Of a DNA stretch of 64,000 bases, positions 15,165 through 20,320 are shown piece by piece. The DNA comes from a virus. Positions within the stretch are counted from its first letter, which is position 1. Each line of letters begins with the position of its first letter. Position numbers and translations under genes: made by a program. The notes beneath the pieces were generated by a model. It was not told where the DNA came from, searched no databases, and saw nothing but the letters and a program-made list of their open reading frames with translations. The stretch is taken from IMG/VR virus record IMGVR_UViG_3300013104_000001, positions 62,001 to 126,000 of that record; one strand, 5' to 3'.

Positions 15165-17066
15165 ATGGCAGCTACAACTGATGTATTATCGCCCCTGCAA
15201 AGACTTCTCGCAAGTGCAAAGGATAATACCCGTGTTGTCACTATCAATAATGGCGAGATGTCCTATTTCCCATTAAGTGATTTAACCGAACAGCTCACCA
15301 ACCTCCTGAGTGTTGATGTGTTGAAAGCCAATGATGCGCTGTGCTTAATTGGCCAAATCCAATCTTTCGATGAACTGCGTAAAACCAAACCACGGATGGA
15401 AGGTGCCCGTATCTCTCTGCGTGGCTGGAATGCCAACACCTGTTGTGGTGGCGGTGAGTTCATCGGTCATCTTAGCAAAGGGAAAGATGATGGCGGTACG
15501 ATTGCCGCAGGTAATGGGTTCTACTGGGAACGTGTAATGACTGACCCGGCTGAGCTCAACGTAACACATTGGGGCGCGGTACCTGACTCGAAAACCGATG
15601 CTGTTCCGGCAATGCTGAATATGTACAACTGGTCACAGGCTAACTACCAAGGTGTCGGTGTACGTTTCCCAGCAGGAACATTCTTTGTCTCTTCCTTTAA
15701 ACCAGGCAGAGAGCTCAACATTATCCGCATTACTGGCAACCCGACCAACTTTGGTTATCATGGTTCGACAATCCTCGTGTCGAATGAAGATGATAACTTC
15801 ATGATTGATCTGACAGCCCGTAAAGTAGAATTGGCTAACTTCATTTTCCGCGGTACAACAACTGTTGATAAACCGACTAAGAAAAGTGTCTACAACAACG
15901 ACATCATCGGCGGTCAGTTCTTTAACGGTAGCTGTCTGCGTTTTGAAAACATCGGTGGTAAAAGTATCAAGCTGGTCGATACCCTCGATACCCGTATCAA
16001 TCAGTGGTATGTCTCACAGTGTACCGGTGATGTGATTACCTCGACATGGTCTGGTCGGGCTGCCGGAGTATGGGATCACAGTACTGCAATCGAACTGTCT
16101 AACTTCAACGTACAGAACGTTCGTGGCGCAATGGTCTTTAATCTCCCACGCTGTACTCAGTCGATGATGTACAATGGCTGGATTGAACACTGTGATGATC
16201 CAGGCGATCTGAACAACGGTCAATGGGTGGTTACCGCGCTTAGCATCGAAGAGTGTAAGAAACCACTGCGTGTGGCATACGCACGTCTTATTGAGACGGC
16301 TCGTAGTCTGCAGTCTGGTTCAAGCATCGATTACACACCAGATCCGAACATCACCGAATGGTTAAGCGAATGGGAACGTGGTCGTGTTGACTTACAGAAC
16401 TACGGGGTTTACACCGATGGTTCTCTTGAGTTCGGCGCCATGATGTCCCGTAACAAACTGAGCAACTCTGGTGTCTCACCGAAGTGGTTCCGTGTTGGTA
16501 AGTTCTTCTCACCTGCTGAAGGTGATCAGATCGATGTCAATCTGGTTGGTACTGGTAACTTCCTCTCAGCCAGCGCTGTACTGAACGATGTCGATGATAC
16601 CCGTCAAGGCGGTGGTAACACACTGATTCGTATTCAGTACAAGAAAGACGGTGCAATTGGCGGTACTTTAATGCCGATGGGTTCCTCACCTATCCAGGCT
16701 GCTAAGATCGTTAAAGATGGATCACGCTGTGTTCTTTATGTACAGCTGAAAGGTTACACCCGTAACGTTATCCCAATCATCACAGCAACGGGTAGCACGC
16801 ACTTTGAGAAAGGCGTGTCGTTCTACTTCCGTGCAGATGTCTCGCCGGTAACCGATGCTGAAGTCACAGCGCTGGTCAACTCGACAGATATCAGCGAGCA
16901 GTGGTCTATTGGTCAGAAAGCAGGTGTCGGCGCTACTAATGAAGGCGACCTGATTCTGAAGGGCAAGATTGTAGGTGACTTCCTGCAGGTGCGGGTTCAG
17001 GTTAACCAAGCCCAGTGGTCGAAGTCCGAGCTGCGCTATATCGAGCTCAAGAAAGAAGCAAAATAA
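15165..17066 (+). CDS. Tailspike-like protein, predicted beta-helix, 633 aa
   Basis: Residues 65-125 carry the head-domain pattern of phage tailspikes: SFDELRKTKP, then GGGEFIGHLSKGKDDGGT and NGFYWERV, leading to THWGAVPDSKTDAVPAMLNM. The next 250 residues have the repetitive strand-turn pattern of a right-handed beta-helix with pectate-lyase-like fold. The C-terminal 200 residues look like a beta-rich trimerisation or lectin domain. Expected role is receptor binding or polysaccharide cleavage at the tail. TAGGAG precedes ATG 15165. It is monocistronic, bounded by terminators. Enzymatic specificity cannot be read from sequence. Confidence 0.78.
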   Translation: MAATTDVLSPLQRLLASAKDNTRVVTINNGEMSYFPLSDLTEQLTNLLSVDVLKANDALCLIGQIQSFDELRKTKPRMEGARISLRGWNANTCCGGGEFIGHLSKGKDDGGTIAAGNGFYWERVMTDPAELNVTHWGAVPDSKTDAVPAMLNMYNWSQANYQGVGVRFPAGTFFVSSFKPGRELNIIRITGNPTNFGYHGSTILVSNEDDNFMIDLTARKVELANFIFRGTTTVDKPTKKSVYNNDIIGGQFFNGSCLRFENIGGKSIKLVDTLDTRINQWYVSQCTGDVITSTWSGRAAGVWDHSTAIELSNFNVQNVRGAMVFNLPRCTQSMMYNGWIEHCDDPGDLNNGQWVVTALSIEECKKPLRVAYARLIETARSLQSGSSIDYTPDPNITEWLSEWERGRVDLQNYGVYTDGSLEFGAMMSRNKLSNSGVSPKWFRVGKFFSPAEGDQIDVNLVGTGNFLSASAVLNDVDDTRQGGGNTLIRIQYKKDGAIGGTLMPMGSSPIQAAKIVKDGSRCVLYVQLKGYTRNVIPIITATGSTHFEKGVSFYFRADVSPVTDAEVTALVNSTDISEQWSIGQKAGVGATNEGDLILKGKIVGDFLQVRVQVNQAQWSKSELRYIELKKEAK

Positions 17067-17072
17067 GAACAC

Positions 17073-17099
17073 GGGTCCCTTCGGGGGCCCTTTATGCCG
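17073..17099 (+). terminator. UUCG hairpin terminator with ATGCCG
   Basis: Seven-base-pair stem (17073-17079, 17084-17090, one T-G pair) with a TTCG loop, TTT, then ATGCCG 17094-17099. Ends the tailspike gene. Confidence 0.88.
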
Positions 17100-17129: not shown

Positions 17130-17150
17130 CTATATTACCAGTATGGTGAA
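17130..17150 (+). promoter_or_regulatory. Early-type promoter, CTATATTAC...GGTGAA
   Basis: CTATATTAC at 17130-17138 followed by CAGTATGGTGAA. Of all sites here it is the closest to the TATATTAC early motif of phiKZ-type phages. It stands alone before the YadA-like gene, with an 85-base leader. Confidence 0.65.
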
Positions 17151-17222
17151 TCAAGGAATATCGAGTCACTACACATGTGCAGTCAATCAATATTCAACAA
17201 TACCTCCAGGAACATACCGACC

Positions 17223-19478
17223 ATGAAATTAAAATCGCTTGCCGTTTCCGTTATTCTGTTTACAGCCGGAGCGAACGCTTCTCTGATCAATCTCGATCTG
17301 GGAATCCTGAACTCCACCGTCAACAAAACTACCGGTGACGTTACCGCCCTGAAAGAAACTACCGCGCTGCACACGCAGCAGATCGGTCAGCTGAATACCG
17401 GCCTGAACAACCTGAACACCAAAGTCGACACCTCTGTCAGTTACTTCAATGGTGAACTGGGTAAAACCAACTCGGCGCTGAACAACACCAACCTCAAAGC
17501 TGGCCAGGCATTCGACATCGCAGTCGAAGGTCGTGCAACGGCTAACAACGCACTGGCTACCTCTTACGGTAACGTTGCGGCAATCAACAACCTGGGCGCA
17601 AAGCTCAATGGCGAAATCGATGCGCGTGTTAGCGCTGATGACGCACTGAACGGTCGCATTGACAATCTGTCCACGTCTACGGCGAATGCCACCACAGCGC
17701 TGGATGGTAAGATCGACGCATTGTCTGCCGCAGGGACCGCGGCGATCGGGGCGGTTGACGGTAAAGTCGATACCCTGAATGGTAAAGTCAATGACCTGGC
17801 TGCAACCGGCGTGAAAGTTGCCGGTCAGCTGAATGACAAAATTGACGCTGGCGATAAAGCGCTGAGCACCCGTCTGGATTCGGCCATTGCTAATGCGCAA
17901 GCAGATAGCAAAGCGCTGGGTAACCGTGTTGATGTCGCACAAGCAACTGGCACTGCAGGCGTGGTACTCGGTACTGTCGCTAACCTGAAAGTAGATGCGC
18001 TGGGCGCAAAAGTGGATGCAACCACTAAAGCGCAAGCGGGCGTGAACAAATCTGTTGATGGTCGTCTGACTTCTGTTGAAGGCAAAACTGCACAAAACAG
18101 CAAAGATATCAGCGGTCTGAAAACTGGTCTGGCGACCACCAATACCAACGTGGGTAATCTGAACACCAAAGTGGACGGTGCGATTGCTACTCAGGCAGGT
18201 ATCAATAATCAGGTTCAACGGCAGTTCGGTGAAACAGGTGAGCGTATCGGTCGTACCGAAACTCGCCTGGATACAGCTGAAGGCGCGCTGCGTGATCAGG
18301 GTGATCATCTGAATGCAGTTGATGCACGTTCACAAAACAACGCCGTGCGTTTAGACGGTGTTGAAGGTGGTCTGCGTGAAACTAACGATCAGATGACCAA
18401 AGATCGTACCAACATCAATAACCGTGTAGACGGTGTTCAGTCACAGGTTGACAAAAACACCAACGACATTGTTAACGTTGGTAACGTTGCGAACGAAGGC
18501 TACAACAAAGCAGTGAACGCACAGAACACTGCTGACGTTGCAGTCGGTCTGGGTCAGAAGGGTATCAACGACGCCTACAATGCGCAGCAGACTGCTAACG
18601 CAGGTGTTGCCATCGGCCAGGATGCGAAGAACACAGCAATCAATGCGCAGAACACCGCGGATGTCGCTGTAGGCATGGGCCAGAAAAATGGCAATGACAT
18701 TGTCAATCTCGACAATCGCGTAACCACGAATACTGGTGCGATTCAAAAGAACAGCAATGACATCGTTAATCTGGATAACCGTACCACATCCAATACCCAG
18801 CAGATCCAGCAAACGCGGAACGATCTGGTTAACACGAACAATGTGCTGACTCAGAACGTGAAGCAGACTCAGTCTAACACCAACCGCATCACCACGGCTG
18901 AAGGCACCATCGCAACGCATACCTCGCAGATTGCGAACCACGAAGGTCGTATCACAACCAATGAAAACAATATCACTAAGAACACCAGTGATATCAAAGA
19001 AACTCAGACGGTTGTGAACAATCAGGGTAAAGTGATTAACAATCACGAGACGCGTATCACTAACAATGAAACGAACATCTCTAACCTGAGCAACGACTAC
19101 TACCAGTTCCAGGATATCTACAACCAGAACAACCAGATCATCAACAACAACATCAATAACTCTTCTGCCCGCACTCTGCAGCAGTCTAAGAGCTATACTG
19201 ATCAGCAAGTTGGTAACCTGCGTAACGAAGTGAACCGTAACAAAGATGAAGCGCGTTCCGGCGTGGCTTCTGTTGCGGCGATGGCTAACATTCCACAGGT
19301 GGCTGGACAGACGTTTACTGTTGGTGCAGGTATTGGTCAGTATAAAGACAAGACTGCATTGGCCGTCGGTGGCGTGTGGGCAGTAAGCCCTAACGTTGCT
19401 GCTAAGACTTCTATCGGCTTCTCTTCTGGCAGTGGTTCTGATGTAGTTGCTGGCGCCGGTCTTGGCTTCGGCTTCTAA
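17223..19478 (+). CDS. YadA-like trimeric autotransporter adhesin, 751 aa
   Basis: Complete trimeric-autotransporter architecture. It has a Sec signal peptide MKLKSLAVSVILFTAGANA, about 640 residues of coiled-coil stalk repeats (NLDNRVTTNTGAIQKNSND; NAQNTADVAVGLGQKGINDA), and a C-terminal YadA-type outer-membrane anchor. The anchor begins GVASVAAMANIPQVAGQ and ends SDVVAGAGLGFGF with a terminal aromatic. The ATG at 17223 is chosen over an in-frame codon at 17175 because the signal peptide begins there. No Cys is evident. Such proteins are bacterial surface adhesins; a phage copy with signal and anchor would be displayed by the infected cell, not the virion. It has its own early-type promoter and terminator. 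Confidence 0.88.
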   Translation: MKLKSLAVSVILFTAGANASLINLDLGILNSTVNKTTGDVTALKETTALHTQQIGQLNTGLNNLNTKVDTSVSYFNGELGKTNSALNNTNLKAGQAFDIAVEGRATANNALATSYGNVAAINNLGAKLNGEIDARVSADDALNGRIDNLSTSTANATTALDGKIDALSAAGTAAIGAVDGKVDTLNGKVNDLAATGVKVAGQLNDKIDAGDKALSTRLDSAIANAQADSKALGNRVDVAQATGTAGVVLGTVANLKVDALGAKVDATTKAQAGVNKSVDGRLTSVEGKTAQNSKDISGLKTGLATTNTNVGNLNTKVDGAIATQAGINNQVQRQFGETGERIGRTETRLDTAEGALRDQGDHLNAVDARSQNNAVRLDGVEGGLRETNDQMTKDRTNINNRVDGVQSQVDKNTNDIVNVGNVANEGYNKAVNAQNTADVAVGLGQKGINDAYNAQQTANAGVAIGQDAKNTAINAQNTADVAVGMGQKNGNDIVNLDNRVTTNTGAIQKNSNDIVNLDNRTTSNTQQIQQTRNDLVNTNNVLTQNVKQTQSNTNRITTAEGTIATHTSQIANHEGRITTNENNITKNTSDIKETQTVVNNQGKVINNHETRITNNETNISNLSNDYYQFQDIYNQNNQIINNNINNSSARTLQQSKSYTDQQVGNLRNEVNRNKDEARSGVASVAAMANIPQVAGQTFTVGAGIGQYKDKTALAVGGVWAVSPNVAAKTSIGFSSGSGSDVVAGAGLGFGF

Positions 19479-19490
19479 GTTATAAAGTCA

Positions 19491-19519
19491 GGGACCTTCG
19501 GGTCCCTTTCTTTTTTATG
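19491..19519 (+). terminator. UUCG hairpin terminator, long T run
   Basis: GGGACC/GGTCCC with a TTCG loop (19491-19506), then TTTCTTTTTTATG. A strong intrinsic terminator that isolates the YadA-like gene. Confidence 0.9.
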
Positions 19520-19606
19520 TCTATTTGTAGAAGTGGACAGAATAAAGAAGTTCTATACTCCCGCTGACCAAACAAAGTGTCGGCTAAACAAAGAAGAGGT
19601 AGTATC

Positions 19607-20320
19607 ATGCATATCGTAGAATCCAAAGTTGTACGTCTGGATAAACTCGCTGAATTCGCTAACGCCAATTTTGATCGCGAACCTGGCCAGCAATTTAATC
19701 TACCGTATAGCGTTGAGATTGATTATTACGAAGATCTTAAGACGGGTCATCAGTACACGCTGGCACTGAGACAGATTGGTAGTGACGGCCTTGTAAAAAC
19801 CCTGTACAGGACAGCTAAATTACCGAACGCCTTTGCCCGTGATAAGTTTGTCAAAATTGAAAACAGTATGGCGGGATATGGTCCTGGTATTGAACTTCTC
19901 GGTATGGCTGCGTGGTATTGGTTGCTGACTAAAGATAACCAGAACGGTCGTGAGCTTGGTATCGAGATCGCTACAAAAGCATGGGATGCTTGGACATTGG
20001 TCACTGCTATCATTGATGGTTCTAAAGCACGCGACAAATTCCAGCAACATGGTTTTCTGTGCCCTGGTGTTATTTTTGACCAAGCCATTCTGTGCGCGTC
20101 TATTCCTGGCGATCCATCCGTTTGGTTAAAGCGCATGACCGTAAGAAGTCTCGGTAATGTAAATATCGTATCGCGTTGGACATTCGTCAAAGTGTACCAA
20201 GGTAATCATGATCTCTTCCATGAAGAGAAACATGCAATAATGCAAACAACTAGTTTGCATCAGGAACCGGCTTCTGCTGAAAAGATTTTGAAAGCCAAGG
20301 CCTTCCCTTTTAATCCGTGA
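19607..20320 (+). CDS. Hypothetical protein, 237 aa
   Basis: Start ATG 19607 follows AAGAGG with correct spacing; a GTG at 19577 in frame lacks a ribosome site. Soluble alpha/beta protein with a central helical region (GIELLGMAAWYWLLTKDN). Not recognised. The upstream stretch 19540-19560 contains CTATACTCC, a poor match to the early-type core. Confidence 0.85.
   Translation: MHIVESKVVRLDKLAEFANANFDREPGQQFNLPYSVEIDYYEDLKTGHQYTLALRQIGSDGLVKTLYRTAKLPNAFARDKFVKIENSMAGYGPGIELLGMAAWYWLLTKDNQNGRELGIEIATKAWDAWTLVTAIIDGSKARDKFQQHGFLCPGVIFDQAILCASIPGDPSVWLKRMTVRSLGNVNIVSRWTFVKVYQGNHDLFHEEKHAIMQTTSLHQEPASAEKILKAKAFPFNP

Follow-up and report, generated by a model that had tools for sequence, protein, structure and literature searches.

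The gene at 17223–19478 encodes a 751-aa protein that sequence and predicted fold confirm as a type Vc trimeric autotransporter (TAA) with a genuine YadA-type membrane anchor and no head domain; the virus that carries it most likely belongs to the nucleus-forming, phiKZ-like jumbo phages. Positions refer to the window, that is, the whole 64,000-nucleotide stretch of DNA analysed, which covers bases 62001–126000 of a virus record of 287,406 bases. The locus has the following features:

15165–17066, plus strand: tailspike/EPS depolymerase gene, the upstream neighbour, outside the unit (phrog_4250, E = 1e-218)
17073–17090, plus strand: hairpin behind the tailspike/EPS depolymerase gene, weak and possibly an insulating terminator (-14.9 kcal/mol, z = -1.6)
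17130–17145, plus strand: phage promoter CTATATTACCAGTATG of the CTAYATKAC-N4-GTG set, assigned by motif and found at the same place in AH06, Ea35-70 and L008
17146–19526, plus strand: insertion relative to AH06 and Ea35-70, approximate, from alignment of the flanks
17208–17211, plus strand: ribosome-binding site AGGA, read directly
17223–19478, plus strand: whole coding sequence, 751 aa (ORF and PF03895)
17223–17279, plus strand: signal peptide, residues 1–19, MKLKSLAVSVILFTAGANA/S (direct reading and relatives)
17280–19220, plus strand: helical stalk without head, residues 20–666 (helix prediction, heptad periodicity, asparagine layers)
19302–19475, plus strand: YadA-type membrane anchor, residues 694–751 (PF03895, 2LME, fold)
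19490–19515, plus strand: intrinsic terminator, 7-bp stem (19490–19507) and T-tract (folding z = -4.5)
19607–20320, plus strand: phrog_11154 gene, the downstream neighbour, with no assigned function; directly behind the promoter in AH06 and Ea35-70 (PHROG)
8051, 17130, 20835, 34633, 41137, 44882, 54426, 57612 and 59049, plus strand: promoter-like motif CTAYATKAC-N4-GTG (motif scan)

The best start of the coding sequence is the ATG at 17223, behind the AGGA ribosome-binding site, which is also present in L008, a second viral contig. Direct reading of the N-terminus gives a Sec-type signal peptide with a predicted cleavage site between MKLKSLAVSVILFTAGANA and SLIN; signal peptides were called throughout by such reading together with a simple rule set, which 6 of 78 background ORFs also pass. 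At the other end, the Pfam family PF03895 matches residues 694–751 with an E-value of 1.5e-9, exceeding the curated cut-off, and a profile built from 19 phage anchors retrieves the YadA anchor 2LME first (E = 5e-13) and then those of AtaA and Hia. For the last 133 residues, which end in ...GFGF, AlphaFold2 predicts a long helix and four strands with pLDDT values of ~85–95 in the barrel part, and the only PDB matches of this model with E < 0.001 in Foldseek are TAA anchors (Hia 3EMO, 2GR7 and 2GR8, AtaA 9VNJ and YadA 2LME). In the full-length monomer model, whose confidence is low (mean pLDDT 57), residues 38–666 form a helix with short breaks. The hydrophobic residues of the stalk recur with a period of 3.5 (score 8.6 vs 4.3 for the 95th percentile of shuffled sequences), and six asparagine layers of the form [IV]xxN[TSE]xx[IVL] are found in it, compared with 0.56 expected from shuffles. 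Low-confidence helix prediction, heptad period and asparagine layers together identify the stalk as a coiled coil. The whole protein contains no cysteine and two prolines. No head domain was found, as the full-length model has no strands before the anchor and Pfam returns no head domain; heads are common in type Vc proteins but not obligatory. The initial annotation had described a signal peptide, a long coiled-coil stalk and a C-terminal YadA anchor in this ORF, and all three were recovered; the profile search and the structure prediction of the barrel, which it had proposed as checks on the anchor, both bear it out.

The promoter of the gene differs at one position from CTAYATKAC-N4-GTG, a motif family with 9 matches in the window vs 1.2 expected. 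In the whole record, exact sites number 14 on the forward and 0 on the reverse strand, and a reversed control pattern gives none; with one mismatch allowed there are 24 sites, all forward and mostly 36–80 bases 5' of an ORF. Forward sites number 9 in AH06 and 8 in Ea35-70, and neither genome has a reverse site. One copy in the record lies 80 bases upstream of the start of the nuclear-shell gene, another precedes the gene of an RNA polymerase beta subunit, and the 16-mer promoter of the L008 adhesin gene is identical to the nuclear-shell promoter of the record. Nine virion genes, namely those of the major head protein, tail sheath, terminase, tail fibre and tailspike and of four other structural proteins, were found to have no copy within 250 bp. 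Because the motif is shared with the nuclear-shell and RNA polymerase subunit genes and is absent from these nine virion genes, the adhesin gene is likely expressed early. These companions, along with the early promoters of phiKZ-type phages (TATATTAC), suggest that early genes are what the motif marks. This 8-mer alone was discarded as evidence, since it occurs once in the window vs 1.95 expected and is hence not over-represented; the evidence lies in the longer motif. Thus, the early-type promoter that had been assigned to the gene agrees with the distribution of the motif, and the claim that the gene has its own terminator also holds, given the stem at 19490–19507 and its T-tract.

The nearest named relatives of the record are Agricanvirus phages such as Erwinia phages AH06 and Ea35-70. 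Its assignment to the nucleus-forming, phiKZ-like jumbo phages is based on a nuclear-shell gene (phrog_4795), read whole with 720 aa, and several RNA polymerase subunit genes. The nuclear-shell (chimallin-type) protein, encoded at L099:188–2350 (G000:C1:205887–208049), has a long N-terminal extension that is rich in Gln. In AH06 and Ea35-70 the tailspike gene adjoins the phrog_11154 gene with nothing between them, and PF03895 has no match anywhere in either genome. Gap alignment places the insertion site at about 17146–19526, just 3' of a conserved CTATATTACC element, and L008 carries a gene that is 87% identical at the same place. By this comparison the adhesin gene is an accessory gene (moron), present here and in L008 and missing from AH06 and Ea35-70, and it is dispensable, as the nearest relatives lack it.

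Matches to the adhesin were found by tblastn in 60 phage records. A signal peptide is present in the window protein and in 16 of 16 fully read relatives from named phages, which span jumbo phages, Ackermannviridae, Schitoviridae, Kuravirus, Grimontviridae and T5-sized phages; the start of the phiEco32 relative is mis-annotated. Among the IMG/VR loci, the relative at L023 is cut by the contig end, no signal peptide was seen at L033, and in L038, a T4-like copy, the signal peptide is immediately followed by an in-frame stop. The neighbours of the relatives are mostly non-tail genes with early or metabolic functions (RNA polymerase/dUTPase, dexA, DNA polymerase, NrdD/NrdG and anti-sigma genes), and in Pantoea phage AAM22 the relative adjoins a structural gene on the opposite strand. 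Passengers vary from ~60 to 1000 residues, one of them, in L034, being collagen-like; minimal versions of 128–142 aa in T4-sized phages (L041, L042 and L043) consist of a signal peptide, a short linker and the anchor. Between the window protein and that of L008 the stalk is 94% and the anchor 69% identical, and in the anchor tree L008 falls together with Bue1 and phiEa2809, two phages of the Ackermannviridae (support 98/85). Hence, anchors appear to have been exchanged between phage families. This contrast between a far more divergent anchor and the stalk of two near-identical adhesins (L022 and L008 against window positions 19200–19475) points to exchange with Ackermannviridae phages. The tree, from an alignment of only 90 columns, requires at least five changes of label between phage and bacterium on well-supported branches. 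Capture of a whole bacterial TAA was rejected, since no bacterial relative of the stalk was found, although the anchors of Enterobacterales TAAs are related to those of the phages. In the Foldseek list of viral proteins, the anchor weakly resembles cyanophage 'outer membrane protein-like barrel' families, including DUF680 proteins, one of which was detected in virion proteomics of S-SZBM1.

Relatives of the protein are labelled 'tail' in PHROG and RefSeq, the upstream neighbour is a tailspike gene and the stalk is weakly similar to the tail needle gp26, all of which would fit a tail fibre in which a YadA-like end has been co-opted for trimerisation. Among the 'YadA' proteins encountered in the analysis, a single one, that of cyanophage S-SZBM1, has also been documented in virions (PMC9146016). 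However, a virion component would have to be reconciled with signal peptides in all relatives read from named phages, with a real membrane anchor by profile, structure and fold, and with a promoter that is not used by the nine virion genes examined. On these three grounds, the signal peptide, the fold of the anchor and the class of promoter, we set the tail-fibre reading aside as very improbable. The cyanophage precedent was likewise discarded: the protein annotated as 'YadA domain-containing structural protein' (L021:8885–10219) lacks both the Pfam YadA domain and a signal peptide, and with neither anchor nor signal peptide it is a different protein, whose annotation looks wrong. The 'tail protein' label of the relatives is probably wrong as well.

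The anatomy of the protein and the established route of type Vc secretion point to export and display. In the proposed mechanism, the gene would be transcribed early from the phage promoter, the protein would be exported by the Sec system of the infected cell and BAM would insert the trimer into the outer membrane, where a stalk of ~90 nm (~630 helical residues of ~0.15 nm each) would be shown on the infected cell; we consider this sequence of events very probable. As its most likely role, we tentatively hypothesize a brush of stalks reaching past the LPS, which would hinder the adsorption of further phages or the re-adsorption of progeny (surface exclusion) during replication of the phage within its shell. 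Early expression, the absent head and the recurrence of such proteins in competing lytic phages are compatible with a brush. For the whole chain, up to and including early display of a protein that changes the cell surface against contacts from outside, we regard the chances as about even. A counterpoint is provided by the T4-like versions of 128–142 aa, which are too short for a tall brush, so that the class must serve more than one function unless the length of the stalk is irrelevant; they urge caution in assuming a single mechanism for all phage versions. The absence of the gene from the nearest relatives and the Gly-rich tip repeat of the Yoloswag and pEa_SNUABM_5 versions also weigh against this reading.

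TAAs commonly cause autoaggregation, and infected cells might adhere to one another or to uninfected neighbours, which would give the progeny access to new hosts at lysis. Relatives are annotated as 'autoagglutinating adhesins', although only from the shared anchor sequence, and Eib TAAs form chains, but the head domains of EibG contribute to both chain formation and autoaggregation (PMC12511318) and a head is missing here. This makes aggregation somewhat less likely than the brush, and we consider it improbable on its own terms. Fainter still is the prospect that the infected cell adheres to a surface such as a plant or biofilm matrix, or that carrier cells become lastingly stickier. Bacterial TAAs bind matrix, and a role in virulence has been suggested for N4-like viruses (PMC10654107); the Salmonella carriers are, however, described as virulent phages (PMC3728262), so any benefit would be brief. 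A comparably slim chance is given to interference with the envelope, in which the anchor, independently of the stalk, would occupy BAM or alter the outer membrane and thereby affect receptors or the trigger of a defence. Such an effect would suit the very short versions in T4-like phages, and a gene of the same kind in a T4-like Serratia phage lies within a ToxIN-escape deletion; but the smallest such deletion spans 13 ORFs, none of which was assayed singly (PMC5449768), and the long stalk of the present protein would be superfluous. A role as a defence system was discarded, as PADLOC returned only weak coiled-coil matches.

Phage yadA homologues were known before, having been reported in 2013 and 2023 (PMC3728262, PMC10654107), and for the Salmonella N4-like phages their non-tail neighbourhood was noted (PMC3728262). 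The nearest relatives are already annotated as adhesins, and a functional study of phage-borne TAAs was not found in the literature searched. The putative autoagglutinating adhesins of the Erwinia jumbo phages Yoloswag (AQT28733.1) and pEa_SNUABM_5 (QQO90415.1) resemble the window protein in signal peptide, long stalk and anchor, are 50–53% identical to it in alignment and are not encoded beside tail genes. In contrast to the window protein, they have a Gly-rich tip repeat, which could be a binding tip, and they come from a different genus and another gene position. The proteins of Bue1 and phiEa2809, annotated as STEC autoagglutinating adhesins, share the anchor clade and the membrane-proximal stalk but are shorter (~470–490 aa) and lie in a DNA-metabolism neighbourhood. 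For the agglutinating adhesins of phiEco32 and Salmonella phages FSL SP-058 and SP-076 (PMC3728262), all from lytic phages and away from tail genes, signal peptide and anchor are shared, whereas the passengers differ, as does the collagen-like one of the related L034. Anchor fold and secretion type are also those of Yersinia YadA (2LME) and Haemophilus Hia (3EMO), which are bacterial and have head domains, unlike the phage-borne, headless protein described here. The Eib proteins of Escherichia coli, presumably prophage-borne, are likewise TAAs tied to phage genomes, but of temperate phages, and they bind immunoglobulin and have a head.

The present analysis contributes the link of the promoter to the nuclear-shell gene, the insertion site, the uniform presence of signal peptides in the named-phage relatives read and a correction of the 'tail' label. 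It is conceivable, though rather doubtful, that lytic phages of many unrelated lineages share a family of early, host-exported trimeric autotransporters, now labelled as tail proteins, whose stalks would remodel the surface of the infected cell and thereby exclude competitors, with passengers and anchors being exchanged among the phages. If such proteins are indeed displayed on the cells that lytic phages infect, nucleus-forming phages among them, a number of 'tail protein' annotations would have to be corrected, and an overlooked layer of phage–phage competition would exist at the cell surface.
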